A model generated the notes under the pieces. It saw only the letters and a list, made by a program, of their open reading frames with translations, did not search any database and had not been told where the DNA came from. Shown here piece by piece: positions 6,728-26,117 of a stretch of DNA of 64,000 nt. The translations under genes and the position numbers were made by a program. The stretch is from a virus: positions 16,562 to 80,561 of the IMG/VR virus record IMGVR_UViG_3300042154_002686, one strand, 5' to 3'. Numbering within the stretch: position 1 is the first letter of the stretch; each line of letters opens with the position of its first letter.

Positions 6728-6761
6728 AAAAAAGGGTGGCGTTTCCGCCACCCCTTGTTTA
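6728..6761 (-). terminator. Intrinsic terminator after the 667-aa YSDG protein
   Basis: On the minus strand GGGTGGC-GGAAAC-GCCACCC followed by six T forms a strong hairpin between the large structural gene and the connector gene. It ends directly at the chosen ATG, so the connector operon needs read-through or its own promoter. Confidence 0.8.
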
Positions 6762-6776
6762 GTGTCTACCTGCTAA

Positions 6777-8780
6777 TTAGATGCTCCTGTTATACCAGAC
6801 AACACCGCCCATACCATCGTGCTTTCCGTATATTTCCTTCGATTCCCATCTTCGGAGACTCGTAGTATCTGTTGTTCTTTCTCTGTACACGCTGAAGAAT
6901 CCTCCTGCGTTGTTCGGGATTGGCTTACCGTCATACGACCAATATGCAATGGTTCCAGACTTGAACGAAACCTTATTGGGAGGAGAAGAGTAACATGTGG
7001 AAGCATTATTGTCTTCATCGTCATCCTCTGGGCATGGGTCAGTTGCGTTTACCTTTGGCCCATTAGAAATCTTTCTGTTTTTCCATCTTTGTCCCGTGGT
7101 TATCCCCTTTGTCGTAGCGGCAGTCACGGAGGCTCCAATTTTCCATCCTGCGGCAACGCCATCAAGAGGGATTTGAACATGTCTATATCCGCTTCCGTTA
7201 ATGCCATTCCCGTCAGAAGATGTGCAAACTGAGCCAACAAATCTTCCTGCATTAGTCGTGCGGTATTCTCCCTTTGGGGGATTATTGCACTCAGTTTCTG
7301 GGAATTCTGGCTCTTCGTAGTTCGTGTCGCCAGACCTTGAGCCATCCCACTCAGACTCTTGACCCTCTGGGTCTTCTCCAGTTGAGCCAGAGTTTGTAGA
7401 CTCTACTCTGATTGTAAATCCACCAGTTGAGTTAGCAGTCATAATCAGCAAGGCATCTTCGCTTCCTTCTAAATACTTAGAACCCATGAAATCTCCGTCT
7501 TGATACTTGAATTCAGTTCTTGGGGGAGTGAATGCAGTACCGCAATATCCATCATGGATTTCGTCTTGAACGGTCACTGTAGCGGCATACATGTACTCCC
7601 CCCACTGTGGGTCTGTTCCAATTGTCATTTGGTCGTCCGTTTCTACCGTGTTAATGATTATTCCAGCCTTCGTGCAACCAGTTACTGGGTCAATATCTGG
7701 GTCTTCTGGTTCTGGGTTTTGGTCCTTTGCCTCTCTGTAAATGTCTCCTTGGAGGTCTGGTCCAGCAGTTTTGTACCAATATTGTTCATCCTCGTACACA
7801 ACGGTTCCAAGTGGAAGATACTCATTTCTTGTTCTTTCCTCTTCCGAGCATTCACCGTCTGCAACTATTTCAACATATTCATCTCCAACCGTAACCTCCA
7901 TGCTTGCTAAGTGACTTCCGTAGCCACTAAGAGCCTTCTTGATTGGACTCGTGGATACTTGACTATAAAAATAGCCATCTGGGTCGCAGTTTGTGTTGGG
8001 ATTGAAAGGTCTGCTTGTATACCAGCCTTCACCGTCTGAAAGATATTCCGTTTCGCCCTTAACTAAAATAGAAACTCCTGCATTAACCCAAAGGGTGAAT
8101 TCGGTTTGAGTTGGTGGATTAAACTGCGTACCGTCATAAGTCTTTCTGACAGTCTTAAGGCCAAGCGTAACAGTGTCTCCTTCAATTACAGTTGTAATTG
8201 GCTCTGGAGGCATGTCCTCGTACTCGTCCTTGTCGGGCCACAGTTTTGTAATAACTGGAGTTTGGAACAATCCAGCACCATCGTGCTTGATGATGATTCT
8301 TTTGTTTGAAAAAGTTATGTCAGCCGCAACAGTGTTTATCTGATTGTATTCCCATCCAATAAACTTTCTAACCTTATTGAATGAAGTGTCGTAAACTTCA
8401 TACAACTTTTCTCCAATTACAAAATATCCAGTTTGAACAGTTTCAATTACTTTAAATGCTGACTCAACCGTAAACTGCGTTGCCTTTAGAACTTCTTCCT
8501 TGACGGTCGTTGGCGTTCCTGTTGCCCCAGCGATAGTTGGGGTTTGAACTGGCTGTGCGATTAATTGCTTTTCGACATTTTGGACAAGCGGCTGTTCGTT
8601 GTTACCAGCAAACTTTGTTGGGATTGGACGCTCAAAGTAGTACGCACGAAAGCCATCTTCAAGTGCTTTCTTGTAGTACTTTTCGGCAAGGGCTTTTTCA
8701 TAAAAAGCCTTTGTCATATTAACAGTTTGTCCGCCTTCCGTGACGGTAATGATTACGATAGAATAGTCTGGATAAGGCAC
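6777..8780 (-). CDS. Large virion-associated protein with N-terminal small domain and SDG repeats (667 aa)
   Basis: A TTG codon exists at 8798, but GTG at 8780 gives (V)PYPDYSIVIITV, which parallels the neighbouring gene's MAYPFYSIVIVE, so GTG is chosen. Residues 1-60 form a small beta-beta-alpha-beta domain found in five proteins of this phage. The rest is beta-rich, acidic and glycine-rich, with motifs such as YLSDGEGWYT and VADGECSEE that recur in the 607-aa gene at 24094. It lies between capsid and connector genes. A head decoration or fibre role is inferred; no enzymatic motif was seen. Confidence 0.7.
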   Translation of the reverse strand: MPYPDYSIVIITVTEGGQTVNMTKAFYEKALAEKYYKKALEDGFRAYYFERPIPTKFAGNNEQPLVQNVEKQLIAQPVQTPTIAGATGTPTTVKEEVLKATQFTVESAFKVIETVQTGYFVIGEKLYEVYDTSFNKVRKFIGWEYNQINTVAADITFSNKRIIIKHDGAGLFQTPVITKLWPDKDEYEDMPPEPITTVIEGDTVTLGLKTVRKTYDGTQFNPPTQTEFTLWVNAGVSILVKGETEYLSDGEGWYTSRPFNPNTNCDPDGYFYSQVSTSPIKKALSGYGSHLASMEVTVGDEYVEIVADGECSEEERTRNEYLPLGTVVYEDEQYWYKTAGPDLQGDIYREAKDQNPEPEDPDIDPVTGCTKAGIIINTVETDDQMTIGTDPQWGEYMYAATVTVQDEIHDGYCGTAFTPPRTEFKYQDGDFMGSKYLEGSEDALLIMTANSTGGFTIRVESTNSGSTGEDPEGQESEWDGSRSGDTNYEEPEFPETECNNPPKGEYRTTNAGRFVGSVCTSSDGNGINGSGYRHVQIPLDGVAAGWKIGASVTAATTKGITTGQRWKNRKISNGPKVNATDPCPEDDDEDNNASTCYSSPPNKVSFKSGTIAYWSYDGKPIPNNAGGFFSVYRERTTDTTSLRRWESKEIYGKHDGMGGVVWYNRSI

Positions 8781-8800
8781 ACTATGGCCCTCTGTCAACT

Positions 8801-9109
8801 TTATTCTAAATCCGCAATACCTTCAGAAACCCTTGAAGGCTTCTTTATGGCCTTAGCGGCCTTAACATCCTGCTCGTCAACCACGGGTGCATTACCGCCC
8901 CCTGTGGATTCTGTTAATTGCTTTCTTGACTCTTCAGACCTGCAACGCTTGTCCGCCCGTGGCGACATAAACAGGTAAGCCTCAATCCCGTCCGCTCTGG
9001 CCTTAACAAATGCATCGATTCCCCTTTGTGCGTTTAACTTGTCGTAAACCGTTGAGGACGGAGTTCCGTCCTTTTTGATGGTGATTAAGATGGAAAATTT
9101 TCTCTTCAT
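8801..9109 (-). CDS. Small-domain family protein, copy 2 (102 aa)
   Basis: Residues 1-52 match the small domain shared with neighbours: FSILITIKKDG strand, Tyr-Asp, an alpha helix ending in ADG, then EAYLFMSPRADK. A Ser/Glu/Lys tail follows. It has its own promoter on the minus strand (TTGACA at 9139-9144, 18-nt spacer, TCATAA at 9115-9120) and lies 20 bases before the large SDG protein. A virion role is inferred from the neighbourhood. Confidence 0.65.
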   Translation of the reverse strand: MKRKFSILITIKKDGTPSSTVYDKLNAQRGIDAFVKARADGIEAYLFMSPRADKRCRSEESRKQLTESTGGGNAPVVDEQDVKAAKAIKKPSRVSEGIADLE

Positions 9110-9147
9110 ATGTTTTATGATGTGGGTGATTTTGTGTATGTCAAGCG

Positions 9148-9354
9148 TTAAGTTGCTGGGTATGGCTGTGTACTATTCGTAGTGTGTTTTGTTGGATTTG
9201 GCTTTTCGTAAAGAAAAACACGCTTTCCAGCATTCAACCCAGACATGTATGCACGATTTGCTTCCAGAGTCGATTGGTAAATCTTAGTTTCAGCCGTAGT
9301 AACTCCATTTACTGTTGTCTCAACAATAACGATTGAATAAAAGGGATAAGCCAT
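9148..9354 (-). CDS. Small-domain family protein, stand-alone copy (68 aa)
   Basis: The whole protein is the small domain: MAYPFYSIVIVE, a Thr-rich hairpin, a helix ANRAYMSGLNAGK, then RVFLYEKPNPTK and a short Thr/Asn tail. It sits directly downstream of the major capsid gene behind a terminator, where small head decoration proteins often lie. TTGACA occurs 12 bases upstream of the ATG, an arrangement also seen at the 8780 start. Role inferred. Confidence 0.65.
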   Translation of the reverse strand: MAYPFYSIVIVETTVNGVTTAETKIYQSTLEANRAYMSGLNAGKRVFLYEKPNPTKHTTNSTQPYPAT

Positions 9355-9379
9355 TTAGCCTTGAAGATTGTCAACTAAA

Positions 9380-9408
9380 ACAAAAAACCCCCATTTCTGG
9401 GGGTCTTG
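9380..9408 (-). terminator. Intrinsic terminator after the major capsid gene
   Basis: Minus strand: GACCCCCAGAAATGGGGGTT then a T-run. It lies about 20 bases past the capsid stop and, with the terminator at 10406, makes the capsid gene an independent transcription unit. Confidence 0.85.
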
Positions 9409-9428
9409 TTTTGCTAATCTTCTTAAGA

Positions 9429-10364
9429 TTAAGAAGCGATAATCTTGGCGAGCGTTCCGACAGAACCCTTCTGAACTCCGTACAGGATGCTCATTGAGAG
9501 TTTCTGCTTGCCCGAATCACCGTCATACCATTCACGGACTTGGACGGTGAGGCCAGACTTTTCGTCTGTGGCCGAGGCGACATTGCCGTACCAGTTGGTG
9601 GGCAGAGCGGGCTGGCGAGTAGCGATGATGATGGACTCTGATGTGCAAGCGATGCCCTTCATGTTGGCAACAGCACCAGAGGGGAAGGCCGCATACTGAT
9701 TGACTTCAAAGCCGTGGATGCGAGGCAGAAGATTTTCAGTAAGAGGAGCGTTAGTACCCGAAGCATACTGCTGTTGGATAGCAGGGTCAGTAGCCAGAGA
9801 GGAGTAGAGCGAAGGCTTGACGATAAGGATTCGTCCCTGTTGAGGAACATATCGGTTCGTGAAGGCTTCCGAGATGCGAGCAACGGCATCGGCATCGAAT
9901 GCAAGAGCATCGCCATCGTAGACATAACCACGGTTACCAACAGGACCAGCGGTCAGTTCTGGGTAGTTGGTTTCATTGACGAGGGCAAAGATATCGTCAA
10001 GGACGGCCTTGGAGACGGCCCAAGCGGCAGGACGGATGAAGGTTCTGCGGAGAACTTCATAACCACCGAGAGCGACTTCGCCATCAGAGAAGCCCATCAC
10101 GAAACCCTTATGCTTGTTCAGCGTGATTTGGCGGGCTTCGGATGTAACATCGCTAACAGCATAGCCGTCAGCACCAATGTCGGTAATCGACTCCACACGG
10201 GAGGCGATACGGGTCGTGACGGTTTCGCCACGGGTAGCGATTTCGCCACCAAAGTTCGTAGTGAACTTCGAGATTAAAGGGAATTCGGCAAGAAGCGTTG
10301 TAAGCGAGTCTTGGGCGATGAGATTGAGGTTAATACCCCCGATTGAGTTGTCTCCAAATGGCAT
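9429..10364 (-). CDS. Major capsid protein
   Basis: 311 aa, with composition typical of HK97-fold coat proteins: an N-terminal SLTTLLAEFPLISKF segment, a long central helix region (YEVLRRTFIRPAAWAVSKAV) and a beta-rich C-terminus with IIATRQPALP and VREWYDGDSGKQKLS. It sits downstream of portal, protease, scaffold and a basic protein. It is a single-gene unit with its own canonical promoter and flanking terminators, consistent with high expression. The P22-like or phage-lambda-like subfamily could not be decided. Confidence 0.88.
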   Translation of the reverse strand: MPFGDNSIGGINLNLIAQDSLTTLLAEFPLISKFTTNFGGEIATRGETVTTRIASRVESITDIGADGYAVSDVTSEARQITLNKHKGFVMGFSDGEVALGGYEVLRRTFIRPAAWAVSKAVLDDIFALVNETNYPELTAGPVGNRGYVYDGDALAFDADAVARISEAFTNRYVPQQGRILIVKPSLYSSLATDPAIQQQYASGTNAPLTENLLPRIHGFEVNQYAAFPSGAVANMKGIACTSESIIIATRQPALPTNWYGNVASATDEKSGLTVQVREWYDGDSGKQKLSMSILYGVQKGSVGTLAKIIAS

Positions 10365-10407
10365 AATTTATTGTTATATATTAAGGTTCCTTTTTGGAGG
10401 CTGTCAA
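10365..10407 (-). promoter_or_regulatory. Strong promoter of the major capsid gene
   Basis: TTGACA (10402-10407), an 18-nt spacer and TAATAT (10378-10383) on the minus strand; the leader AACAATAAATT before ATG has no Shine-Dalgarno. This is the most canonical promoter in the window. Confidence 0.85.
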
Positions 10408-10437
10408 CCGTATCAAACAAAAGAGCCCCTTTCGGGG
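10408..10437 (-). terminator. Intrinsic terminator between basic protein and capsid gene
   Basis: Minus strand AGAGCCCC-GAAA-GGGGCTCTTTT with a GAAA tetraloop. It closes the scaffold/basic-protein unit just upstream of the capsid promoter. Confidence 0.85.
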
Positions 10438-10450
10438 CTCTGTTTTTGGC

Positions 10451-11467
10451 TTATTTACCGCCTTGGTTTTTTCTGCGTTCCTTAATCTGTCGCATAACCT
10501 CTGCCGCCCTGTCCTGTGTTTCCTTCTTCTTTCTGTCCGCTTCCTGTCTCTGTTGGGCGATTTCTCTATCAATTCTTTCGCCCTGTTGGCGTAACTTTTC
10601 CCGAGCGGACTCTAACTGTCTTTCTGCCGCATCCTCTTCCCTTTTGTTTCGCTTTGGAGCCTTTGGAGCCTTTTCTCTCTTTTCAACACGCTTCTTTGTA
10701 CGCTGTGCGGTTGAGTCGTTTGTGCTTCTGCGAGCCTTGGGCGTAGCCTTCTTTGGAGTCGTCTTCTTCTTGGCAACAGGAGCCTTGCGTCTAGCCTTGG
10801 GCTTATTAGCCTTCTTTGCTCTCAACTTTGCGGCATTATCTCTTGCCGTCTGTCTGGCCTTTTTAAGTTTCTTATTGGTAGCCGCAGTCTTCTTCTTGGA
10901 TTCCGCTCTACGCTTTGCGTAAGCCGCTTGCTTCTTGCTGACTAAAGGCTTGCCTTGCAAGACCTTCTGCTTGTTGCGATTGGCAACCCGAGCACCTCTG
11001 GCAGTGCCATCCGAAGGGGTGTTGAAGGAAGCAGGAATGACAACACGCTTGCCACCCTTACGAGCACCACCACTGGAGACTTCGTCATCATTGTATCTGC
11101 GAACCGTTCCTCCCTTAAGTTTTTGGCCTTCTTGGTAAGGACCATAGTCAGAAAACTGCTGAACCCCAGGTTTCATCGTGCCTCTGCGTGTTCCGAGAAG
11201 TTCGTCTCTATTGTCTTCAGTAACCTTTGTTCTGGTGATTGAGCCGTCTTCGTTCTGAACGGCAATGATATCTCCGTTCTTAACATACTCTTCGGCTTCT
11301 CCGTATCCAATTTCGCCAGTTTCCTTACCTGCCGTGCCGAAGTTCGACTCACCAGTGTAAAGCATTCCAGCCTTGCCTTGGCGACGAAGTTCTGCGTTAT
11401 ACGCACGGGCTTTGCCCGCAGGGGTTAGCGAGCCGTCAGCCGCTTTATAGAATGTTCTTCCTGCCAT
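10451..11467 (-). CDS. Very basic histone H1-like head-operon protein (338 aa)
   Basis: Residues 1-160 are a mixed globular part (MAGRTFYKAADGSLTPAGK; YVKNGDIIAVQNEDG). Residues 165-338 are dominated by Lys, Arg and Ala, with PKARRKAPVAKKKTTPKKA-like repeats followed by a charged coiled coil (REKLRQQGERIDREIAQQ). Such Pro/Lys/Ala tails resemble eukaryotic H1 or bacterial Hc1-type DNA-binding tails. Position between scaffold and capsid suggests an internal head protein that binds DNA; that is inferred. Promoter: TTGACA with TATTCA 18 nt away. Confidence 0.75.
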   Translation of the reverse strand: MAGRTFYKAADGSLTPAGKARAYNAELRRQGKAGMLYTGESNFGTAGKETGEIGYGEAEEYVKNGDIIAVQNEDGSITRTKVTEDNRDELLGTRRGTMKPGVQQFSDYGPYQEGQKLKGGTVRRYNDDEVSSGGARKGGKRVVIPASFNTPSDGTARGARVANRNKQKVLQGKPLVSKKQAAYAKRRAESKKKTAATNKKLKKARQTARDNAAKLRAKKANKPKARRKAPVAKKKTTPKKATPKARRSTNDSTAQRTKKRVEKREKAPKAPKRNKREEDAAERQLESAREKLRQQGERIDREIAQQRQEADRKKKETQDRAAEVMRQIKERRKNQGGK

Positions 11468-11535
11468 GTTTTTGTTGTATTATAGTTGGGTTGTGCCATG
11501 AATATGCATGGCTCATCCCGCTTGTCAAGCGGTAA

Positions 11536-12720
11536 TTAAGACCGCTTGGAACGGAGGACAGAAGAGGCGTGACGCTCGATGATTTGCTTGTTGTCGAGGT
11601 AGAACTTACGCTGTTCAACACCCTTGAGGGTTTCAAACTTCTTGTAAATGTCAGAGTCGGTTTCAGCGACAGGAGCCGTATCAACGGAGATTGCAACAGC
11701 CTCTGTCCCGTGGTTGGACACGATTTGAGCGGCCTTCTCTTCAACGGTCTTGGCAGACTTTTCGATGGTATTGACCTTGCTCATCAGCATTTCAAACTTT
11801 TCTTCAAGAGCCTTATACTTGGTGACCGCTTCTTCCTTGGCTCTGACCTCCATAGCCATGGTGGCTCTGGTGGAGTTGAGTTCTTCTTCGAGGGCGGCTG
11901 GCTTGGTGGCTGTCAAGGAAGCAAACTTTTTAGCAATCGCTTCAATCTTGGCATCAATGCTGTCGTCAACGACTTCAGCAACTGCGGCAGAAACTGACGC
12001 AGGAGTCTCGGCAGAGGCGACTGGTTCAACTTCTGCTTCCGAGGCTTGTGTTTCTGGGGTTGTTTCTTCGGCATTCTTTGGCTTTCCAAGTGGGTTTTCC
12101 TTGTGACGCTTTTGGTTGGGCTTGGCGAGGACGGTTTGGTTCTTGTTGATACCACCGAGGTCGTTGGCGGCATCTGGGCCGTCAACAGGCAACTTCTGCT
12201 CTGGAGGCATCTTCTTTGCCTTGGGCTCCTTTTCTTCGCCTTCATTCTCTTCTTCGTCTTCGTCATCGCAATCCTTCTTAGCCATCAACTTCTTTTCGTC
12301 CTTCATTTCTTCTTCGTCTTCCTTGAGATGCTCCTTCTTGTCCTTCTTGACCTGCTTCTTCTTCTTTTCTTCGTCATCTTCCATTTCTTCTTCCTGCTTC
12401 TTGATAGAGGCGGGTTCGGACTTTTCGTGCTTGGATTCGTCTTCGTCAACGCCTTCGGTCTTGGGGGCGAACATCTTGGAGTACTGGGCTTCCATGGCTT
12501 CAACCTTAGCACCAGTTGCCTTGTGGTAGTCCTTGATGTTGTTGTCCATCTCAAGAACCTTCTTCATGGCATCAGAGAGGCTCTCTTCCATCTTTCTCAT
12601 ACGCTCGGTATAAGTGTTGTTTTCTCCAGCAAATGTAGCGAACTTTTCGTCAAACGCCTTGGCTTGAGATTCCTGCGATTCGAGGAGTTGCTTGAGGAGA
12701 TTATCAATGGATTTGCTCAT
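11536..12720 (-). CDS. Acidic coiled-coil scaffold protein
   Basis: 394 aa. An N-terminal helical segment (residues 1-80) is followed by a block of Glu/Lys/Asp repeats (about 95-180), a Pro/Ala/Glu-rich linker and a C-terminal coiled coil (residues 265-335). Length, charge and position between protease and capsid fit an internal scaffolding protein cleaved by the S49 protease. Its own promoter is TTGACA, 18 nt, CACTAC, ending ten bases before ATG. Confidence 0.75.
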   Translation of the reverse strand: MSKSIDNLLKQLLESQESQAKAFDEKFATFAGENNTYTERMRKMEESLSDAMKKVLEMDNNIKDYHKATGAKVEAMEAQYSKMFAPKTEGVDEDESKHEKSEPASIKKQEEEMEDDEEKKKKQVKKDKKEHLKEDEEEMKDEKKLMAKKDCDDEDEEENEGEEKEPKAKKMPPEQKLPVDGPDAANDLGGINKNQTVLAKPNQKRHKENPLGKPKNAEETTPETQASEAEVEPVASAETPASVSAAVAEVVDDSIDAKIEAIAKKFASLTATKPAALEEELNSTRATMAMEVRAKEEAVTKYKALEEKFEMLMSKVNTIEKSAKTVEEKAAQIVSNHGTEAVAISVDTAPVAETDSDIYKKFETLKGVEQRKFYLDNKQIIERHASSVLRSKRS

Positions 12721-12782
12721 GTTTTAGTAGTGTGCTTATTGTTGAGTTATTGTCAACCGAAAAGGGCTCGGTTGCGTATAAA

Positions 12783-13757
12783 TTAGAGGCCGTTTCTTGC
12801 CATCAATTTAGATGTGACTTGGGAGTGAGCCATGTTCCTGTTCGCCTTAATCATGTCCTTGGCTTGCTTCCACTCATCAACGAGGGAGGTAGCCATGCCA
12901 ATCCGAACGGCTTCGTCCCCGTAGAACGACTGGCCTTGGAGGTTCTCTTCTTCCACGAAGGCACGAACTGACTTAACATCTCTGATAAAGCGTCTGTGCA
13001 GTTCAATCACCTCGTCTTGAAGACGCTGGAACTGGAGTGCGGTAAGGGGGAGGTGTTCAACGCCAGCGGCCTTGTAGTCGCCAGACTTAATGACAGTAAT
13101 CTTAACCCCATCCTTCTCGTACTTATCGCTTAAATCCTTGAGGGTAAGGTAGATGCCAACGGCTCCAATGCTTGAGGAAGGGGTGACCATAAGGCGGTCG
13201 CACTGAGAAGCCAGCCAGTATGCGGCTGAACCGCAATCGCCCTCGCAATAAGCAGTCGTAGCCTTGGGATAGTTTCTAATCTTCTTGGCAATTTCTTCAA
13301 GGCCAGTTGTCGAGCCACCGCCAGAATCAAACTTAAATACAACATCCTTCACATCTTCACGCTTTTCCCAAGCGTCAAGTGTGCAAGCAATGTCGCAAAG
13401 GTCGGTGCATCCAAGCATACGCTCAACCTTAGTCAAGCCCTTGCCGATTACGCCCTTCACATCAATGTATCCGATGTTATCATCAACCTTTGGCTCAAGG
13501 AGTTCTTGGAAGAAGTTCTCCAACTCTCCGCTTGAAGGGGAGTCATCGTCATCTCCCCAAGGAGAGCCAGCCCTTGACTTGCGACCACGCTTTTCGGTCT
13601 TATTGATATATTTGTCGGTCCATGCCGACATGTGGTAAGCAATATCTGGATTAGATAAGATTATATTTGCATTATCCAAGAAGGCTTGAGCCTTCAGTGG
13701 GTCGATGAGCATTGGTCGCCCAGCGGAGATTGCGTAACATAAGTCGTTTCTAATCAT
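12783..13757 (-). CDS. Head maturation protease, S49 (SppA/gpC-like)
   Basis: 324 aa from ATG 13757 (MIRNDLCYAI); a longer frame to 13997 would overlap the portal heavily and is rejected. A ClpP/SppA fold is seen: VVFKFDSGGGST (residues 139-150), catalytic Ser177 in GDCGSAAYW, and the partner Lys229 in KSGDYKAAG. Lambda gpC-type enzymes of this family cleave scaffold and portal during head maturation. It directly follows the portal gene. Confidence 0.92.
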   Translation of the reverse strand: MIRNDLCYAISAGRPMLIDPLKAQAFLDNANIILSNPDIAYHMSAWTDKYINKTEKRGRKSRAGSPWGDDDDSPSSGELENFFQELLEPKVDDNIGYIDVKGVIGKGLTKVERMLGCTDLCDIACTLDAWEKREDVKDVVFKFDSGGGSTTGLEEIAKKIRNYPKATTAYCEGDCGSAAYWLASQCDRLMVTPSSSIGAVGIYLTLKDLSDKYEKDGVKITVIKSGDYKAAGVEHLPLTALQFQRLQDEVIELHRRFIRDVKSVRAFVEEENLQGQSFYGDEAVRIGMATSLVDEWKQAKDMIKANRNMAHSQVTSKLMARNGL

Positions 13758-13764
13758 AAGTTTA

Positions 13765-15456
13765 TTATCCGTTGTAAGAATTGTCAATCGGCTTTGAGCG
13801 GCCTTGGTTCTGCTTCGGCAAAGCCTCAACAGGATTCTCATTCCTTTCAATTGGAGAGACACCCTTTGAAACATCTGGGGGTGCTGTTTCTGGCTCAAGT
13901 TCGCCAACGGTATCCTTAATGTCCTCGTAAGCAAGACCCTCCTCAACAAGAGGATTTCTTGTGCTCTGTTCTGGGAGCGGATTGCCATCCTCGTCAACTT
14001 GAGGCTGGTTCTTGTTTCCGTTCATGCCCTCCATTCCTCCCTGCGGAGAGAATCTGAAGAGGTCATCACGATTGAGGCCAGTGTCCTTAGCCAACTTCTC
14101 AAGGAACAGGAAGTTCTTGGCTCTCTTACGCATGGTCTTTTCGTATTGATAACCTCTGGCCGCAAAGTCATCCTCAATGGTCGTTCTTCCCATTTCAAGG
14201 TCGGCTCGGTCAGAGACTGCGTCTCTTCCAGCATCAACAGTGACTGAGCGTGGGGTCATCCACTCAACCTTCCACCAGTTTCGGGCAGAGGGAAGGTCTC
14301 CACGGTTAATCTTAGTTCCGAGCCAATACTGGAAGTAAGGATTGAGGAACCGTTTGATAATTATATGCTGTCTATGCGTGAAATATCGTCCAGCCTTGGC
14401 AACGACAAGGCGGACAGATGCACCACCAGCCTTGGTTGGGTCAGCCAAGAACTCGAATGGTAGTGAGCCGAGGCATGAGTCTCTGCGAAGGTGCTCAATG
14501 AATCCAGTAAAGGCAGTCGTTGGGCGAGCAGATTGATGAGAGACAAGTTCCTCGTTTGGCTGAAGGACGGCAGTGACCCCACCAAGGATACGATTCATTT
14601 CAAGCGTATTAGTTGGCGTATTGCTCGTATTTGGAACTCCAAGACCAATGTCTCCATTGTCTGGACCAAGGTCGTTTGTCTTTAAAATACGGCTGATTCT
14701 GGCATTGTCCTTGGCGGCAACCTTCTCCATGGACAGCAGGTCCATTTCATCACGCAAATTGGTAATAGCATGCTGATGAGGGGGGTAGGCTCTTGAAGCA
14801 GATGCGTGTGTCGGATTGTAGACATGCATCATGGCGGACGCTGGAACTGGGGTAAACTCCCCATTCGACTGCTTAACATAGTAAACAGTTGGAACGCCAA
14901 ACTTATTATACTTAATTCCGTCATTTATAGACGGGTCAGAGACAAGGTTAAAAGGTGTCTCAACTCTATGAGTCTCAACGATTTGGAACTTTGGAATTCC
15001 GTTTCTTTTTGCTTTAATTAAGAAGATTTCACCATCTCTATCAAGTGCTTCGCAGATGATATAGAGGGATTCGAGCATCGAAAACCTTCCCGTTACCTCT
15101 GGGCTGTCGCATTCTTGGTCCCATTCGGCCTCAACAAGCGATTGCCAATCGAAATCGCCACCGTTACATTGCATCATTATTCCATCTCCGATGGAATAAA
15201 TTGCAGTATCCGAGATAATTTGACGGAATAAACCGTTATTTTTCTCAAGCCAGCGGGAAAGGCGAACCATTTCCCTTCTAACTGAGTCGGTTAATTCTAA
15301 TCTAAAATCGGTCGGTGCGGGAGCATCGACTCGAGTTCTATGAACAGACTGACGGGCGGATTCCCACGCACCCATGTACGCCTTTGGGCGTAGAGCGTTT
15401 GAGATAGCCAGTCTGGCTCTGTCAAAGAAACTTATTGGTTTTGGTGTATTGCTCAT
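13765..15456 (-). CDS. Portal protein (lambda gpB-like)
   Basis: 563 aa, the usual size for the family. Typical features are DSVRREMVRLSRWLEKNNGL near residue 57, GDGIMMQ, ALDRDGEIFLIK and a C-terminal Pro/Asn/Glu-rich region. The portal forms the dodecameric DNA entry ring at one capsid vertex. Gene order terminase-W-portal-protease is the lambda order. The start overlaps the upstream gpW-like stop by four bases. Confidence 0.92.
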   Translation of the reverse strand: MSNTPKPISFFDRARLAISNALRPKAYMGAWESARQSVHRTRVDAPAPTDFRLELTDSVRREMVRLSRWLEKNNGLFRQIISDTAIYSIGDGIMMQCNGGDFDWQSLVEAEWDQECDSPEVTGRFSMLESLYIICEALDRDGEIFLIKAKRNGIPKFQIVETHRVETPFNLVSDPSINDGIKYNKFGVPTVYYVKQSNGEFTPVPASAMMHVYNPTHASASRAYPPHQHAITNLRDEMDLLSMEKVAAKDNARISRILKTNDLGPDNGDIGLGVPNTSNTPTNTLEMNRILGGVTAVLQPNEELVSHQSARPTTAFTGFIEHLRRDSCLGSLPFEFLADPTKAGGASVRLVVAKAGRYFTHRQHIIIKRFLNPYFQYWLGTKINRGDLPSARNWWKVEWMTPRSVTVDAGRDAVSDRADLEMGRTTIEDDFAARGYQYEKTMRKRAKNFLFLEKLAKDTGLNRDDLFRFSPQGGMEGMNGNKNQPQVDEDGNPLPEQSTRNPLVEEGLAYEDIKDTVGELEPETAPPDVSKGVSPIERNENPVEALPKQNQGRSKPIDNSYNG

Positions 15457-15704
15457 CTATCGACTTGTCTGTTGTAATTGGTTCTGAGTCCTCGGACTCG
15501 TCCATCTAGACTTCTAAGGGCATATTTTGCCTCATTTAGCATGTCTTGTGGTGGCATTGCGAACTGCTTACTTGCATTGGTGACTCCGTCACCATAAGAC
15601 ATAATTGTCTTACCTTCAAGGATTAATGCAACAGCCTTATCCCTCAATTGCTCGATTGTAGCACGGGGTAAACCGACAAAGATTCCGATTGCTGGTTGGG
15701 CCAT
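15453..15704 (-). CDS. gpW-like head-tail joining protein
   Basis: 83 aa, between terminase and portal exactly as gpW in lambda. The pattern fits: an N-terminal helix (ATIEQLRDKAVALILEGK), a tyrosine-centred turn (IMSYGDGV), then a second helix (MPPQDMLNEAKYALRSLDG) and a basic tail. gpW binds the portal after packaging and prepares heads for tails. Confidence 0.8.
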   Translation of the reverse strand: MAQPAIGIFVGLPRATIEQLRDKAVALILEGKTIMSYGDGVTNASKQFAMPPQDMLNEAKYALRSLDGRVRGLRTNYNRQVDR

Positions 15705-15731
15705 AATGTTTGCCCAATGTCAACAATAATC

Positions 15732-15896: not shown

Positions 15897-15903
15897 AATC
15901 GTA

Positions 15904-18950: not shown

Positions 18951-19162
18951 AGAAAACGAATGGTCTCAACCGTCTCAATAAAACGCACCCCTTCATCAAT
19001 CCCGTCAAGGATTACGAAAGATTTATATTCCTGCTCAACCTTGGTTGTATCTTGCAAGAGCACAATGCGGTCTTTATCCACCCAAGTTTCAATTACCATA
19101 TTCTCTGGTCTTCCAGAGTCCTCTTTGGGAAGGAACATATTTAACTTTATAAAATTACTCAT
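18947..19162 (-). CDS. Small protein between terminase subunits (71 aa)
   Basis: Starts at ATG 19162 (MSNFIKLNMFLPKED), inside the end of the small terminase gene, and ends within the large-terminase start (four-base overlap). Beta-strand pattern with KSFVILDGIDEGVRFIETVETIRFL at the C-terminus. No family recognised. The tight overlaps on both sides support translational coupling and a role in packaging or head assembly. Confidence 0.65.
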   Translation of the reverse strand: MSNFIKLNMFLPKEDSGRPENMVIETWVDKDRIVLLQDTTKVEQEYKSFVILDGIDEGVRFIETVETIRFL

Positions 19163-19910
19163 TGGGCTCCTCCTTAATCTCGTCAAGATTCTCAACCACT
19201 TCCGCATCCCCATCGCCCAGTGCAACTGCCGCACTACGCTCCGACTCGGGTATCTCTGGCATCTCAACATCTGGCAATGGCTTAACCGCAATGTCGCTTA
19301 ATTCAACCTTCGGATTGTACTCCGAAATCTTGCGGAACACATCGTCTCGAAACTCTCTAAACGCCTTCAATGCCTTCGGGGGATTGTCGGGATTAGCCTG
19401 TGGTGCAACCGTCAGTTCGGCTCGCTCAATCAACGCCCGCAACTCGCCCAAAATCTTCCCAAACCGTTGCCCAGCCTCGTCAGCATCCACCAACCGCCCT
19501 TGCTCCTGCAACCGTATATGACGCTCCCTCTCCAGTCGGAGCAGGGTGGCTATCGCTCGGTCATAGTTTCCGTAAAGTTTACTTTGGCTCGGGTCACCAC
19601 TTGCCACCGCTTGCTCAAAGGTGCTTCTCGTCATCTCAACCAACGCCATCTGCTGGTTGATTCTCGTGTCCATCTCGCTGTCCCCTGTCGAGTTACTAAC
19701 ACTCGCAAGTATCTCGTCCAGTCGAGCCAAGTTCAACGGCTGAACGGGAACTGAAATGTGACCAGCAACCTCGTTGTCCGTCTTACGCTTCTCCCTCCAT
19801 GCCTTAGCCGCTTCAACGCTATCAACTGGCATCCCTTGTTGAGCCAATTGCGTAACCCGAACCCGTGAAATTCCCAACTCCTTACCCAAATCTTCGTGAG
19901 TTAATGACAT
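19155..19910 (-). CDS. Terminase small subunit
   Basis: 251 aa. An N-terminal helix-turn-helix (LGKELGISRVRVTQLAQQGMP, residues 7-27) is followed by a helical middle with ERERHIRLQEQGRLVDADEA and an acidic Pro/Glu-rich C-terminus. This is the layout of lambda Nu1-like and related small terminases that recognise the packaging site and recruit the large subunit. It is immediately upstream of the packaging genes. Confidence 0.82.
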   Translation of the reverse strand: MSLTHEDLGKELGISRVRVTQLAQQGMPVDSVEAAKAWREKRKTDNEVAGHISVPVQPLNLARLDEILASVSNSTGDSEMDTRINQQMALVEMTRSTFEQAVASGDPSQSKLYGNYDRAIATLLRLERERHIRLQEQGRLVDADEAGQRFGKILGELRALIERAELTVAPQANPDNPPKALKAFREFRDDVFRKISEYNPKVELSDIAVKPLPDVEMPEIPESERSAAVALGDGDAEVVENLDEIKEEPNE

Positions 19911-19931
19911 AATGTTGCGTTATATGTGATT

Positions 19932-20225
19932 TTACCGCAGTATTACCGAGTTTTGGCTGAACGCCCCTTCTATTAACCCAGCGGGGGCGGGGGTGGAATA
20001 ATAGATTCCTTTGACGGGGGGTGGGGTGGGTGGCATGGCATTAATCCACACTGAGTATGATGTGTGAGGCACGGTGTTTGTGTAATGGAATTGGGCTTGT
20101 GGGCGTGTTGTGTGTTCGTCTGACACGATGATTGCATCTGCGTGTACAATGCCCCCTTGGGGCATTTGTGATGGCATTACGCCATCAATGACATGTATAG
20201 TGTCAATGTAAGTTACTGTGTGCAT
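19932..20225 (-). CDS. Doubtful 97-aa ORF upstream of terminase
   Basis: An open frame from ATG 20225 (MHTVTYIDTIHVIDG) to a stop at 19932, with a promoter-like TTGACT and TACATA 17 nt apart upstream. Its Pro/Thr/Ser-rich composition and ACA/CCC codons differ from neighbours. The stretch 19911-20280 could equally be a leader, a packaging site (it precedes the terminase genes) or a regulatory RNA; no strong hairpin was recognised. Confidence 0.3.
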   Translation of the reverse strand: MHTVTYIDTIHVIDGVMPSQMPQGGIVHADAIIVSDEHTTRPQAQFHYTNTVPHTSYSVWINAMPPTPPPVKGIYYSTPAPAGLIEGAFSQNSVILR

Positions 20226-20262
20226 TATGTAATAGAATGTAATAGCAAAGTCAAGCGAGCAG

Positions 20263-20323
20263 AGGGGGGGGCGGGGGGGGTCACTTGCGAGGCCGACCAC
20301 GGGGGCGGGGGGGGAGGGGGGGC
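20263..20323 (+). other. G-tract cluster with quadruplex potential
   Basis: Plus strand carries runs of 8, 8, 5, 8 and 7 G within 61 bases, split by the AT-hook codons of the regulator gene. The second group lies inside the C-terminal coding end and the first lies just past its stop. G-runs are on the template strand of the minus-strand gene. Confidence 0.7.
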
Positions 20324-20880
20324 TCTTCATCTGCCTCATCATTTGTATCTCTGTTTGCGTTTACTTTCTTCCACGCTTTAGCATATGCTTTGCATGCCTC
20401 CTCTGACCTCATGTACTGTGATGGTGTGAGGTTAAACAGTTGCTGTATACGCTTGACCTTCTTGGACACGAACTGTCTACTACATCCCTTGATGCGTGAT
20501 AGTTCTGTCTCTGTGGGTGGGTCGCCCATGCCAAATGCTATGAGGATACAGCGGGCTTGGAATAGCACCTCTGGGGACTCGGATAACTGCATCGCCATAA
20601 CGACCCTTCTGACGATGGTCTCCACATCGTCTTGGTCAAACATGCGTTTCGGGGCGGGAGGGGGTTCGTCAAAAGCGTTGTCTTCCGTGAAGCCAAAAGC
20701 GGTGTGATTTGGCTGAACCTCAAAAATGTAGTTAGAATCCAGAGTGCCTTGGGGGTTCATCGGCTCTGGAAGGCCGATTTTTTGCTCTTTTGAGAGCGTA
20801 TTGTACCACTTGCTGTAAACATCATCGCCATTTTCACCACTTGAAGATTTTGCGTTTTGCGAAAAATCGTTTTCCGACAT
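20281..20880 (-). CDS. DNA-binding regulator with HTH and C-terminal AT-hook (199 aa)
   Basis: ATG at 20880 (MSENDFSQNAK) is preferred; ATG 20925 would add 15 residues. The helical core has TETELSRIKGCSRQFVSKKV (about residues 118-137), a sigma-region-4/HTH-like segment. The end, PPRPRGRPRK, is an AT-hook-like RGRP motif. It stands alone between primase and terminase genes with its own promoter and a perfect inverted repeat at its start site, suggesting autoregulation. It may switch early to late transcription; inferred. Confidence 0.72.
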   Translation of the reverse strand: MSENDFSQNAKSSSGENGDDVYSKWYNTLSKEQKIGLPEPMNPQGTLDSNYIFEVQPNHTAFGFTEDNAFDEPPPAPKRMFDQDDVETIVRRVVMAMQLSESPEVLFQARCILIAFGMGDPPTETELSRIKGCSRQFVSKKVKRIQQLFNLTPSQYMRSEEACKAYAKAWKKVNANRDTNDEADEEPPLPPRPRGRPRK

Positions 20881-20940
20881 AGCATTGTCCTTCAAATGCT
20901 TGGGGTGAAATTGTCGTTGTTTCATTTTTATGGGCTTGAC

Positions 20941-20987
20941 ATGCTTGGTACGCAAGCATATATATAGATATATAATACGGAAGTCAA
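20941..20987 (-). promoter_or_regulatory. Promoter and inverted-repeat operator of the AT-hook regulator
   Basis: TTGACT (20982-20987), an 18-nt A/T spacer and ATATAT at 20958-20963. Overlapping the start region is ATGCTTG-GTACG-CAAGCAT (20941-20959), an inverted repeat with 7-bp arms and a 5-nt spacer. A dimer bound here would block initiation. Confidence 0.65.
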
Positions 20988-21104
20988 GCAAGAATGAAGC
21001 CTTTCGGCTTCCTTTCTCTTTGAGTTTCAAATCTTTGCAAATCTTTTGAAATATTATCAAAAGTTGTGTTCATTTCTGTTTGCTTGGTCTAGGATTGAAA
21101 TGGA

Positions 21105-23135
21105 TTAGCGTCTATACTTCACCCCGACCCAGCATTGAGAGCGATTGTCCCATATGATGATGGGATTGGACGAGGACAGTCGGATAAGGTGAGCGACCAC
21201 ATCCACAGCCGTAGCCATACCAACCCTCATCCTCTCCATCGTTAGAGCCACCAGAGGGCTCTGGATGGGGTCTGCGAGGTGTTGGGTGGGCTCTATGTCC
21301 ACCATCTTGTTGAGGTCAGCCAAAGAGAAGTTAGCCATGGTGTTCTCGTCATTGAGTTCCCACAGGATACGACCCTCGGCATGTCTAAGATTGAGCATGA
21401 CGGTGGACTTCCCGTCCTTGTCCTTAAGGCCAGCCCGCTTGCCACGCTTGGTCAGCACCAGTTCAAAGAATGGCTTCATCTTGTCGGTTCTCCGAAGCAC
21501 GGCAACCTCTCGACTCCAGTTTACTAACTCAGAACTTCCCAGACCGCTGTATGCGAGGTCAGAGATGGAGGCCGCTGATGCGTCCTCCTTTGCTTTTGGT
21601 TTGCCAGTGTGGTGAAGCCAAATCCAGACGACCTTGGTTTCAAGGAGGACGGGCTGAATCCAGTTGCGGAGGAACTGAGACGCATACGCTTGGTTAGACA
21701 CATCCCCACCTGCGAAGGAGAGGAGAGGGTCTGCGAAGAAGAAGTCTGCATTGTTATGGACGATGAGTTTGCGGGCTTGCTTCACAAACGCTTCCCCAAC
21801 CTTGACGGACTCACGATAGAACTTTATATTTGAACGAAGTAGAGTCTTCTCTTCATCACTCAAGTCCATGGAGCCGACAATGCCCTTGAAGGCTTCGGCC
21901 AAGTCTCCCGTATCGTTCTCCGCTTGCATCACGATGCACTTGAACGGACGGGTGACCTCAATGGAGAAGAAGGGACGACCGATTGCCAGCATGATTGCCA
22001 TTTGCATCAAGAAGGACGACTTGCCGATACCCGACTGACCGATGATGGACAGAGAGCCCCCTTGACATAGCCAACGGTTTCCCAATACGGTAGTGGGGTC
22101 GTTCTCCGTATTGTAGTTCTCCAAGTCATCTACGGTGATTTCGTCTGGGACTTCACTGGACTCAAGATAAGAGACCCAGTTGTCCCAAGAGTCAGCCCCG
22201 ACATTGAGAGCCACAATCCTCTGCTCCTTCTCGCCACGATACACGCCACCGAGACGAGACCAGCGAGAGGGGTTCTTGGTCATCTCGTCTGGTTCGTAGT
22301 CGGAGAGGTAGTCGAACACCGCCTGTCTGCGGAGTCGCCATTCATTTGAGTCCTTGGCATCGACACGCACCCAAGCATGCAGGGACTTGCCTCCCGAGTC
22401 GATGATTGCACCGATGGGGAGGTTGGACTGTTTGAAGATTGCGAACTGCTCCTCCTTTGGGCGAGTGTCGAACTCGACAAGGACATAGCGATGGATTGAG
22501 ACAGAGTCGTCTCGACCAGAGTAGTCACCCTCAAGGATTGGGTTGATGCGGATGTACGCACCTTGTGGCTTGTTCTTATAAAGTTCGTTGTCGGACGGAG
22601 ACGAGCCGAAGTAACGGTCAAGCCACCATTGGACGGTTTGGAATGTTCCCTTGGAGGCGGGGAACCAGCGACCATCTTCATCCTGCCCTGCCTCGTTAGT
22701 AATGCAGACAATCTCCTCTGGCTTGAAGCAGTTGAGGAGCAGTTGCTCTGTCGTGAAGGACTCCGTCTCGGGGACATGACGAGCGTTAGCCAGATTGACC
22801 TTGAACTTGCCAGATTGAGTAACGGTCTGGCTCGGGAGCATCCTGCGAGGCTCAAGGTTTGCATTGTCATCCAGCATCCAGCCACGGGGCTTGGAGTGGG
22901 GGGTGTTGTATGCGTCCTTAATCTTATGCTTCAACTCACGGTCACTCCAAGGAGGGGTGCACTTGAGATTGTAAGCAGACATAAGAGCAGTCGTCTCAAC
23001 CTCTGCCAGATTAAAGCCGTGTGCTAACGCAACGGCTAAAGCAAAGGTTTGAGAGTGACCGCCCGAACCAGCGATTGCTGGTGGCATGGCGGAAGCATAT
23101 CGACTTGCCCGCTCATAAGGAGATAGTGGTGGCAT
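21105..23135 (-). CDS. Replicative primase-helicase (PriCT-like, primase-like and RepA-type ATPase regions)
   Basis: 676 aa. Residues 18-85 match a PriCT-type region (AIAGSGGHSQTFALA...CTPPWSDRELKHKIKDAY). Residues 195-300 look like an archaeo-eukaryotic-type primase core (YVLVEFDTRP; IDSGGKSLHAWV). A RecA-fold ATPase follows, with Walker A IIGQSGIGKSS (364-374), an FFFADPLLSF Walker B and a WLHHTGKPK sensor segment. It probably primes and unwinds DNA at the phage fork. Promoter TTGACT, 18 nt, TTATGT (23151-23180). Confidence 0.85.
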   Translation of the reverse strand: MPPLSPYERASRYASAMPPAIAGSGGHSQTFALAVALAHGFNLAEVETTALMSAYNLKCTPPWSDRELKHKIKDAYNTPHSKPRGWMLDDNANLEPRRMLPSQTVTQSGKFKVNLANARHVPETESFTTEQLLLNCFKPEEIVCITNEAGQDEDGRWFPASKGTFQTVQWWLDRYFGSSPSDNELYKNKPQGAYIRINPILEGDYSGRDDSVSIHRYVLVEFDTRPKEEQFAIFKQSNLPIGAIIDSGGKSLHAWVRVDAKDSNEWRLRRQAVFDYLSDYEPDEMTKNPSRWSRLGGVYRGEKEQRIVALNVGADSWDNWVSYLESSEVPDEITVDDLENYNTENDPTTVLGNRWLCQGGSLSIIGQSGIGKSSFLMQMAIMLAIGRPFFSIEVTRPFKCIVMQAENDTGDLAEAFKGIVGSMDLSDEEKTLLRSNIKFYRESVKVGEAFVKQARKLIVHNNADFFFADPLLSFAGGDVSNQAYASQFLRNWIQPVLLETKVVWIWLHHTGKPKAKEDASAASISDLAYSGLGSSELVNWSREVAVLRRTDKMKPFFELVLTKRGKRAGLKDKDGKSTVMLNLRHAEGRILWELNDENTMANFSLADLNKMVDIEPTQHLADPIQSPLVALTMERMRVGMATAVDVVAHLIRLSSSNPIIIWDNRSQCWVGVKYRR

Positions 23136-23191
23136 TTTTGTGGTGTCCGCACATAATGCCCAACCACTTCCTTAAGTCAAGACAGAAACAC

Positions 23192-23668
23192 TTACAGGAA
23201 CAAGTCTCTGCTGTCTTCCTTCGCCTTAGCCTCACGCTGACGCTTCATCTTGCAAGCGAATAGCGAAGAGTCAGAAACCGCATCATTAAACAGTTTCCGA
23301 GACCACCGCCAAGCAGACTTTGTAAACGCAGGGGGAAGGTTGTATCTCAGCCCCCAAAGACTAATGCTGTCAGACTTTTCTTTATAGAATAAGGCATCAT
23401 CAATAGACTGCTTATCAACCCACTTGTAGACTCCGACCCAAACATTAACTTCATTCAGTTCAATGTTCTTAAATACAATAACGACCTTTACCGTGTCTTC
23501 GGTAAAGTCGGTTGTAATTCTGGCTTCATACATTTCGCCAGACTCTTCATCTTGACCTCTAAGAACCTTAAGTCCTTCTTCATCAAGGTGAAACAAATCC
23601 CAGCCATGCGGATTGCGTTCCTGTTCAACGGGGTCACGCTCAGAGTGATGTTCAAAAGGGTCGGTCAT
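23192..23668 (-). CDS. Conserved-looking replication-module protein (158 aa)
   Basis: ATG 23668 (MTDPFEHHSERD) is chosen; it lies 17 bases inside the upstream gene's end. Charged N-terminus, beta strands (VKVVIVFKNIELNEVNVWVGVYKWV) and a basic C-terminus with SAWRWSRKLFNDA. No recognisable motif. Its place between an SSB-tailed protein and the primase-helicase suggests a DNA replication accessory. Confidence 0.65.
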   Translation of the reverse strand: MTDPFEHHSERDPVEQERNPHGWDLFHLDEEGLKVLRGQDEESGEMYEARITTDFTEDTVKVVIVFKNIELNEVNVWVGVYKWVDKQSIDDALFYKEKSDSISLWGLRYNLPPAFTKSAWRWSRKLFNDAVSDSSLFACKMKRQREAKAKEDSRDLFL

Positions 23669-24023
23669 CTTCAGACGACTCCTTTCTTGCTTGGAATGTC
23701 TTCTTTTGTGGATAAGAAGGAGAGCCGCCCTCTGCGTTCTTCTTGGCTTTCCATTCTTGGTAGTCGGCCTCCTTAATGGCTTCAGCGGTAATGCTGTCAT
23801 CCGCACCATTGTAAACAAGTTGGTCTGGGGAAACCCAGATTTTCTCGCCTGTTTCGTGCTCTCCGTTGTATTCAACGGTTATGGCCTTGATGCCAAACTT
23901 GGTTTGGATGCCAGCCTTGATGACCAGAACCGTCTTTCCCGTAAACTTACCGCTTTTAACGGTGCAGATGTTCGAGAAAGCGAGGTCGTGGAGGGACTCG
24001 TTTTCGTTTTCGTATTCGCTCAT
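23652..24023 (-). CDS. Protein with SSB-like acidic C-terminal tip (123 aa)
   Basis: Beta-rich core (CTVKSGKFTGKTVLVIKAG; FGIKAITVEYNGEHETGEKIWV) then a flexible Ser/Lys/Gln linker ending SSEDDRPF. Acidic tips ending in Pro-Phe are the partner-binding tails of single-stranded DNA-binding proteins. It heads the primase-helicase unit from a promoter TTGCAA, 18 nt, TACATG (24043-24072). A DNA-binding or fork-associated role is inferred. Confidence 0.7.
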   Translation of the reverse strand: MSEYENENESLHDLAFSNICTVKSGKFTGKTVLVIKAGIQTKFGIKAITVEYNGEHETGEKIWVSPDQLVYNGADDSITAEAIKEADYQEWKAKKNAEGGSPSYPQKKTFQARKESSEDDRPF

Positions 24024-24093
24024 ATTATTGGTTGTGCAGGGTCATGTATGCAGGTTTCCCCGCCCTTTGCAAGAAGAAAGAAGCAATTGACAG

Positions 24094-25917
24094 TTATGAC
24101 CCAATGTAGTACCCGCCATTGCCGTCAGCCACATAGAGTGTGACTATGGTCGTGCCAGTCGCATCGTCATAATATTCATTCATAACGATAACTCGGCCAG
24201 ACTCGAAATATGTTTGGTTCAATACGCTGTCATAGACCCCGCAACTTCCGTCTGCGTATTCAACATACTCTTCGTCACCATGCCAATATAAGTTTCCGAG
24301 TTCTGAAATAAAAATCTGCATCTCTCTAAACCCACTGTTGCCTGTCGGCAGTCCACTTTCTGGACACGGCTCGCTATAACTCCAGTAGCACCCGTCATAT
24401 GTCCAGCCAGTCTCTCCGCTGTGAAGCGTGGAGTCTTCGCAATCGCCACCGCAGTTTCCATTTCCCTCTGAATAGTATCCGCAACTTCCGTCATGGTAGT
24501 AATTATTGCACTCGTCATCGTATGCAAACTGTCCAGACGGGGGGCAACCGCCCCCAGTGTACTCCCCTTGATAGAATGAGCCAACTCCATCTGAGTAGTA
24601 GTTGTAATCGTTGCAGTTGCCGACTAACTGCCCAGATGAGTAATAATTGTTTCCGCTTTCAGAATAACTTCCGCAATTTCCGTCAGCGTAAACATTGTAT
24701 GTGCTCTGTCCGACTATCCAACTGCCAGAGCATGGATTGCTTACATATATATCAGAACTGCTTGACTCATACGATGTTCCTGCTGAGTCACAGGCGGGTA
24801 TTTCAACGGTGTAGTAACTTCCAGCACCGTCAGAGTAATAGTTGTAGTTTTCGTTAGAACCGTATGATGTTCCTTCTGGGGTATAATTCCACTCAGACCA
24901 TTCACCGAATGTTTCATTGGCAAACTTTTCTCTTGTTCTTGTTCGGCTAACAACTTCTGTCCATCCAAGATTTAACTTTGTCTCTTCGCCTTCGTATCCA
25001 ATAAGTTTTGCAACTGGGTACACATACCCAATTCCGTCTGAATAGAAATTAAACATCTCGTCATCCGTAACAAATGTATCAACTGGAATATATTCTGTCC
25101 CTGTTGTCTCTTCTGTTGTTCCGCAGTTGCCGTCAGCAACAACATTGAATGTTCTTGTTCCAATCTGATATTCTTGTCCAGAGATTGTCACCATGATTGG
25201 TGAACTGTTTGCTTGGTCTAGGATTGTTCCAGAAGGGTCGCAGGTTTCGTCTGGAACATGGTCTTCGTAGTATCCGCCCTCTCCGTCAGAGTAATAGTTG
25301 TAGTTGCCCTGTGAGCCGAGCAGTTCTCCCGATGGCACGAAGGTAAGAGCCGTGTTTGGCTGTGTAGTGCCACAGTCTCCATCAGCAACGATATTATATG
25401 TTGCGTTACCAACGATGTAGTAGACTCCGTTGATGTGGATGCCGAAGTCTGCGTTGAGACCAGTTTGCAGTATTGTGCCAAGAAGCGGGCACGGACCAAA
25501 CCCGATGTTCTGTACTGTCGTAAAGGTCATCCCCTTGCTTCCTCCGCTGGTCAAGCCAGTGCTTGAGATGGGGGGTGCGGGTGGTGGTAGTATAACATTG
25601 TCAGTCCACTGGGCTGGGTGAGAGGCTGGCGTGTAGCCAGCCGCACCGATGAAGTTGATGAGTTGATAGACTTTCCCTTGGAACCGAACCTTTGCTCCAG
25701 TTCCATATGTCGTTCCATTGTCGTATTCTGGGACGGCCTCACTGCCGTCTCTCAATGACCAACTCTTCCTTGCTGACGGATACAGGAAAGCCACCCCGTC
25801 TGTCACGATTGCCTTATAAGCATCTCTGGCTTCAGCCATGGTAATGAACTGCTTTGCATAGCCACTCCCGTCCGCATTGACTACGATAATGAGAGTATGG
25901 TCTGGCCTGTAAGACAT
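24094..25917 (-). CDS. Repeat-rich surface protein with small domain, CBM-like module and YYSDG repeats (607 aa)
   Basis: Residues 1-52 are the shared small domain (HTLIIVVNADGSG...GVAFLYPSARK). Residues 62-106 resemble a CBM5/12-like module (YDNGTTYGTGAKVRFQGKVY...PAQWTD). The rest is built of two alternating motifs: Y-N-V-x-ADG-x-CG (four or more copies) and YYSDGxGxYY (at least five). It is rich in Tyr, Gly, Ser and Cys. It looks like an adhesin or fibre, yet lies beside replication genes rather than tail genes. Confidence 0.7.
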   Translation of the reverse strand: MSYRPDHTLIIVVNADGSGYAKQFITMAEARDAYKAIVTDGVAFLYPSARKSWSLRDGSEAVPEYDNGTTYGTGAKVRFQGKVYQLINFIGAAGYTPASHPAQWTDNVILPPPAPPISSTGLTSGGSKGMTFTTVQNIGFGPCPLLGTILQTGLNADFGIHINGVYYIVGNATYNIVADGDCGTTQPNTALTFVPSGELLGSQGNYNYYSDGEGGYYEDHVPDETCDPSGTILDQANSSPIMVTISGQEYQIGTRTFNVVADGNCGTTEETTGTEYIPVDTFVTDDEMFNFYSDGIGYVYPVAKLIGYEGEETKLNLGWTEVVSRTRTREKFANETFGEWSEWNYTPEGTSYGSNENYNYYSDGAGSYYTVEIPACDSAGTSYESSSSDIYVSNPCSGSWIVGQSTYNVYADGNCGSYSESGNNYYSSGQLVGNCNDYNYYSDGVGSFYQGEYTGGGCPPSGQFAYDDECNNYYHDGSCGYYSEGNGNCGGDCEDSTLHSGETGWTYDGCYWSYSEPCPESGLPTGNSGFREMQIFISELGNLYWHGDEEYVEYADGSCGVYDSVLNQTYFESGRVIVMNEYYDDATGTTIVTLYVADGNGGYYIGS

Positions 25918-26117
25918 TATAATGTGACTTCTACTGGTGACGGATTGTCTACTGACGACTTTCTCTTGGTTGGAATAAAGTACATGTATGCGTCCTTGCC
26001 ATCCGCAAGGGCTTGTCTGTATTCAAGGACACATTCCGTTGAGTCCTCAAACTGCTTCACCTTTATGGTGTCGTCAAGGTTTACTATAATTAAAGTAGAA
26101 TACTTTTTGATGTACAT
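25917..26117 (-). CDS. Small-domain family protein, stand-alone copy (66 aa)
   Basis: ATG 26117 (MYIKKYSTLIIVN) is preferred to the GTG at 26138, which sits in a hairpin. The protein equals the small domain: STLIIVNLDD, VKQFED, a helix VLEYRQALADGKD, then AYMYFIPTKRKS. The stop overlaps the next start by one base, so it is coupled to the 607-aa gene carrying the same domain, as at 9109/8780. Confidence 0.65.
   Translation of the reverse strand: MYIKKYSTLIIVNLDDTIKVKQFEDSTECVLEYRQALADGKDAYMYFIPTKRKSSVDNPSPVEVTL

Follow-up and report, generated by a model that had tools for sequence, protein, structure and literature searches.

A small domain family encoded beside the major capsid gene of environmental phages is a candidate head anchor for accessory fibres

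The window, by which we mean the whole 64,000-nucleotide stretch analysed here, covers bases 16,562-80,561 of a linear viral contig that is 80,561 bases long. The minus strand of its left arm encodes a head-to-tail module with a lambda-like gene order, which runs on from the head-closure gene to a tape-measure-like protein. Within this arm, five genes contain copies of one small sequence unit; two of them are long genes, here called carriers, that join an N-terminal unit to other modules. The features are, in order of transcription within the module and then for the pair of unit genes that lies apart from it:

First in left-arm order, minus strand: GpA-type terminase (PF05876, E 5.6e-30)
Between terminase and portal, minus strand: 83-aa protein
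After the 83-aa protein, minus strand: lambda-type portal (PF05136, E 7.4e-33)
Between portal and major capsid gene, minus strand: S49 protease, then a scaffold-like protein
9429..10364, minus strand: major capsid protein, at a fixed place next upstream of the unit genes (PHROG 283 major head protein, E 2.5e-25)
9148..9354, minus strand: stand-alone unit protein of type A2, 68 aa, unit at about 9181-9354 (leave-one-out E 7.6e-8)
8801..9109, minus strand: stand-alone unit protein of type B, 102 aa, with a variable tail (leave-one-out E 1.7e-4)
6777..8780, minus strand: carrier c673, N-terminal unit at about 8610-8780 (leave-one-out E 2.5e-9)
About 7734-7901, minus strand: best match of c673 to the repeat profile
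6407..6751, minus strand: putative head-closure protein, 114 aa, the fixed downstream neighbour of the unit genes (synteny, 20 relatives)
25917..26117, minus strand: stand-alone unit protein of type C, 66 aa (leave-one-out E 2.8e-9)
24094..25917, minus strand: carrier c607, 607 aa, unit at about 25756-25914 (leave-one-out E 3.6e-4)
25606..25728, minus strand: CBM_5_12 module in c607, aa 64-104 (Pfam PF02839, 30.7 bits against a cut-off of 26.2, E 3.3e-7)
24100..25479, minus strand: Tyr/Gly-rich beta repeats of about 82 residues in c607, aa 147-606 (repeat profile, all-beta prediction)

The 114-aa putative head-closure protein has a weak match to a minor tail family (PHROG 2551, E 0.0011), and its positional counterpart in the cultured phage P8625, gp13, matches Hc1 (E 0.0012). 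The capsid gene is immediately preceded by a Lys/Arg-rich protein of 338 aa (10451-11467) whose size and sequence vary so much among relatives that it is unrecognisable in several. A terminator-like hairpin (CCCCCAGAAATGGGGG followed by a T run) lies at 9378-9406, between the capsid gene and the unit genes, and TTGACA occurs a short way before the 9354, 9109 and 667-aa genes. The right arm, on the plus strand, contains many repeated intergenic modules (26468-46518) preceding many small genes; each combines a G+C-rich hairpin and T run, resembling a terminator, with GGGTAGG(T/C)...TGCGTAAAATT..GACAAAGATTTTT.TGGTAT or GGTAGGC..TTAATTGACCGAACGCTCATAAA, and these are likely terminator/promoter modules of early genes.

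The initial annotation had placed five copies of the unit in these genes, and all five are there, on the minus strand. A profile built from any four copies and searched against the 1,902 open reading frames of the entire 80,561-base record returned the fifth as the next-best match every time (E 2.5e-9 to 3.6e-4), while the best non-member frame scored E about 0.7 or weaker. Composition-preserving shuffles, of which about 4,600-4,900 were scored per copy, never reached the real score, ruling out a composition artefact, and profile searches of the whole record returned no sixth copy. The unit had also been taken to form the whole of the 9354 and 26117 products; it is present in both, but accounts for about 56-58 of 68 and about 54 of 66 residues, respectively. 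The length of 667 aa originally given for the first carrier fits a GTG start at 8780, the residue at which relatives also start, and a TTG at 8798 would give 673 aa. Stand-alone copies do sit directly upstream of both carriers, 9109 before the 667-aa gene and 26117 before the 607-aa gene, the latter two genes overlapping by one base.

Database comparison places the unit outside named families. It matched no family in Pfam, PHROG or PDB, the five aligned copies lack conserved stretches suited to a direct search, the 9354 protein alone as a query gave no match, and a PDB sequence search returned no match for the unit profile and nothing usable for the profile of the P8625 group described below. 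Neither carrier nor the type B protein matched any of 50,697 phage records by tblastn, in collections that may omit near relatives. Judged by sequence comparison, the unit is a new, previously unnamed domain family. AlphaFold2 predicts the 9354 product as strand-strand-helix-strand (E7-15, E18-26, H29-41, E45-49) with core pLDDT above 90, and the c607 N-terminus, modelled from a separate alignment of seven carriers, is predicted with lower confidence in the same order (E8-14, E19-24, H27-36, E41-46); no difference in fold was seen between these two copies. Across 58 copies, the most conserved positions include F/Y26, A32, Y/F36 and the A-[YF]-L-[YF] strand, together with a proline and a K/R four residues on, just past the last strand. 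Model confidence falls where this P...K/R sits, and a conserved flexible arm beyond the last strand would lend itself to contact with a binding partner. Structure searches with the unit gave many weak matches, none below E 0.001.

Beyond the unit, carrier c607 has a PPPAPP linker, the CBM_5_12 module and about five repeats, predicted all-beta, with the motifs Y-x-V-G, ADGnCGtY, Y-x-P-x-G-t and YNYYSDGxGsYY. At a threshold of E 0.01, the repeat profile matches all carriers of both kinds and no other open reading frame of the sampled loci. The CBM_5_12 module exceeds the Pfam gathering cut-off only in the window's carrier, a relative in locus L006 reaching 20.4 bits. The model of whole c607 is poor, and a structure search with it gave a TM of about 0.06. 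Separately, a 1084-aa tail-region protein (L002:9963-13217) ends in Tyr/Gly-rich sequence with ADGNGG motifs resembling the carrier repeats; its profile match was non-significant (E 0.024 among 8 proteins), too weak for this C-terminus to be accepted as a carrier repeat.

Relatives were collected with the 26117 protein (two contigs), the capsid protein (27 loci) and the type B profile (four more). Nearly all of the capsid-found loci carry units where sequence continues beyond the capsid gene, and the space from the major capsid gene to the putative head-closure gene holds unit genes in 20 of 20 distinct relatives spanning both, as it does in the window. A scripted tally of 20 loci, window included, printed 19 with units between; the exception, L046, has a head-closure stop-to-stop frame that starts before the unit, and its listed coordinates show the usual order. 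Type B occurs exactly once per genome in the window (8801-9109) and in each of the 20 other relatives that hold it, a set that includes L023, in which B is present and the sequence is cut before head closure; B-profile scores are 96-147 for B against at most 21 for other units. In most relatives B is accompanied by one A-like copy. B stands alone in L009, L046 and L047, and L006 and L008 each carry six copies (A1, A2, B, carrier c673, C and carrier c607). Type C adjoins c607 in every genome holding both, and this pair takes four positions. It immediately follows the capsid gene in some genomes and comes behind B or behind c673 in others; in the window it lies outside the block, at a distance of about 15 kb, where its genes are the first to run leftward next to the divergent region. 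Among 21 whole records, the window's pair supplies the only units outside the block from capsid to head closure. A 71% identical relative of type C sits in the head cluster of L003/L004; the window's pair has left that cluster.

Among cultured phages, the nearest in capsid protein (27% identity, E 2e-21) is Verrucomicrobia phage P8625, a lytic siphovirus that infects a marine strain of the Puniceicoccales (PMC4642752). Its 82-aa gp12 (YP_009221555.1), annotated as hypothetical, lies between the capsid gene and a head-closure-like gene, and was the only one of 16 P8625 proteins to match the unit profile (hhalign 59.8%, the others at most 1.1%). The P8625 capsid protein led to a further group of contigs, whose examined members have a gene for 60-183 aa straight after the capsid gene with the sequence pattern of the unit. 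Compared with the unit profile, an alignment of twelve members scored 95.3% (E 2e-8, 54 columns), whereas control families from these loci, for head closure, the next gene and the capsid, gave 0.1-0.3%; in the reverse search, the P8625-group profile matched only unit proteins among the open reading frames of the window's group, B-type first. The unit of gp12 is thus homologous to that of the window and occupies the same slot, but is a single copy; the regions read in this group hold one unit and no unit-bearing carrier. Most of these proteins (L032:9311-9559 and loci L059-L083) have strongly Lys-rich tails, but the tails of L071 and L076 are acidic. The relationship to P8625 suggests Verrucomicrobiota as the host group; when 84,980 bacterial and archaeal genomes were scanned twice, using the capsid protein and the terminase, no provirus was confirmed, so a host link was not obtained that way.

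A tree of the 58 units, coarse because it rests on 65 columns, recovers one group each for B (97/97), C (98/95), c607 (99/97), c673 (100/98) and A1 (100/98). The c673 units group with A1/A2 (99/95), so that the nearest kin of the window's c673 unit is the 9354 type and not the adjoining 9109 type, and the c607 units group with C, with matching sub-trees (92/78, below the starred level). These two affiliations make it most likely that large carriers arose twice, from different stand-alone lineages. The match to the P8625 group, together with the reverse search finding B-type first, makes a single-copy, B-like, post-capsid gene the likely ancestral state.

What such a domain would do on or in the virion can be approached by comparison with known systems, in which an anchor-plus-display architecture is already established for T5 pb10 and phi29 gp8.5. 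T5 pb10 has a capsid-binding N-domain, a PPAPPAPP linker and a displayed Ig domain thought to bind carbohydrate (PMC5292684). The carriers resemble it in layout, with a small N-terminal domain as putative anchor, a proline-rich linker and a C-terminal part that would be displayed, but the pb10 anchor is alpha-helical where the unit is predicted strand-strand-helix-strand, and pb10, with its Ig-like display domain, is without a family of stand-alone anchors. The phi29 head fibre gp8.5 joins a capsid-contacting base domain to a projecting fibre (PMC7602432), and it differs from the carriers in having a beta-tulip as its base and a supercoil of helices as its fibre. For the slot and size of the stand-alone proteins, a precedent is JBD30 gp39, encoded straight after the capsid gene and solved as a decoration protein with a three-stranded sheet and a helix (PMC11445458). 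Both gp39 and T4 Soc are beta-tadpole proteins, whose fold includes an extra beta-hairpin tail, whereas the unit model shows sheet and helix and no hairpin; the unit had no detectable sequence match to gp39, and beta-tadpole proteins were not among the top structure matches. Comparison with the beta-tulip decoration proteins, represented by lambda gpD, gave an hhalign probability of 0.2% and no detectable homology to the predicted strand-strand-helix-strand unit.

Capsid-gene linkage, repeated copying and two fusions to large proteins together suggest that the unit is probably a plug that fixes decorations or fibres to the head. With its constant place beside the capsid gene, single-copy basic form, stable small fold and variable tail, a minor capsid protein is the best reading, and we consider it somewhat more likely than not that the unit is a decoration-type minor capsid domain that later became a head anchor for accessory fibres. 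Under this proposal, the unit would bind the phage head, and the core form, encoded next to the capsid protein, would be type B, of which every genome has a single copy. Types A and C are paralogues, and fusion to large proteins involved copies akin to A as well as copies akin to C. In a carrier, the N-terminal unit would dock on the head and the C-terminal Tyr/Gly-rich beta repeats would point outward, where they, and in one lineage the CBM_5/12 module too, may bind glycans on the host surface or in its vicinity. Unit proteins and carriers would then be present in the virion. The initial annotation's idea that decoration and fibre proteins dock at a single site on the virion is in this sense partly supported, as it fits the gene position, the shared predicted fold and the make-up of the carriers as unit, linker and beta repeats; the paralogues may occupy different virion sites. 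Counted against the head anchor are the Lys-rich tails of most P8625-group members, which would be unusual on an outer surface, the place of the window's C and c607 pair outside the head cluster, the lack of a sequence match to known decoration proteins, and a CBM above cut-off only in the window.

Other roles would account for parts of this pattern. The map position of the unit, between the capsid and head-closure genes, parallels that of lambda gpFI between E and FII, and B and its single-copy relatives might be accessories of DNA packaging or head assembly that touch the prohead transiently, the carriers reusing a prohead-binding domain. The occurrence of B once per genome and the Lys-rich tails of the P8625 group, which could touch DNA, are in keeping with such a role. 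However, unit and gpFI have no detectable homology (hhalign 0.0% and 0.2%), and duplication up to six times with two large fusions is hardly expected of a transient factor, so that we regard this explanation as rather improbable. The strict adjacency of C and c607 across four genomic positions, and the grouping of their units as well as of A-type units with c673, would instead suit a self-association or assembly domain, with each stand-alone protein acting as partner, chaperone or cap for its cognate carrier; the fibres would then sit on the neck or tail and not on the capsid lattice. Many genomes hold B and A-like copies without any carrier, and the single unit of the P8625 group likewise has no carrier to serve in the regions read; we give this arrangement an equally small chance. 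That the copies resemble each other by chance or composition deserves almost no credence: although the unit has a small, simple fold, with many weak matches in structure searches, the leave-one-out E-values, the shuffle controls and the synteny in relatives refute it. As far as sequence and predicted structure can tell, a capsid anchor would explain the overall pattern more simply than either the packaging or the partner role.

Good descriptions of fibres and decorations mounted on the head exist for only a few phages, and the route by which new ones are gained is unclear. The loci described here offer a series from a single post-capsid protein, as in P8625, through a family of paralogues to two separate fusions with large repeat proteins. 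We tentatively suggest, as a possibility somewhat short of even, that a minor capsid protein of a broad phage group, probably infecting Verrucomicrobiota, has served as an interchangeable plug, with one to six paralogues, two independent fibre fusions and a mobile plug-fibre cassette; this would constitute a modular system for mounting beta-repeat, glycan-binding adhesins on the phage head. The hypothetical gene gp12 of P8625 gains a candidate function, and as it belongs to a cultured phage the idea is directly testable. If capsid docking is true, the unit would provide a short anchor for display on phage heads, and many environmental phages could be better annotated.
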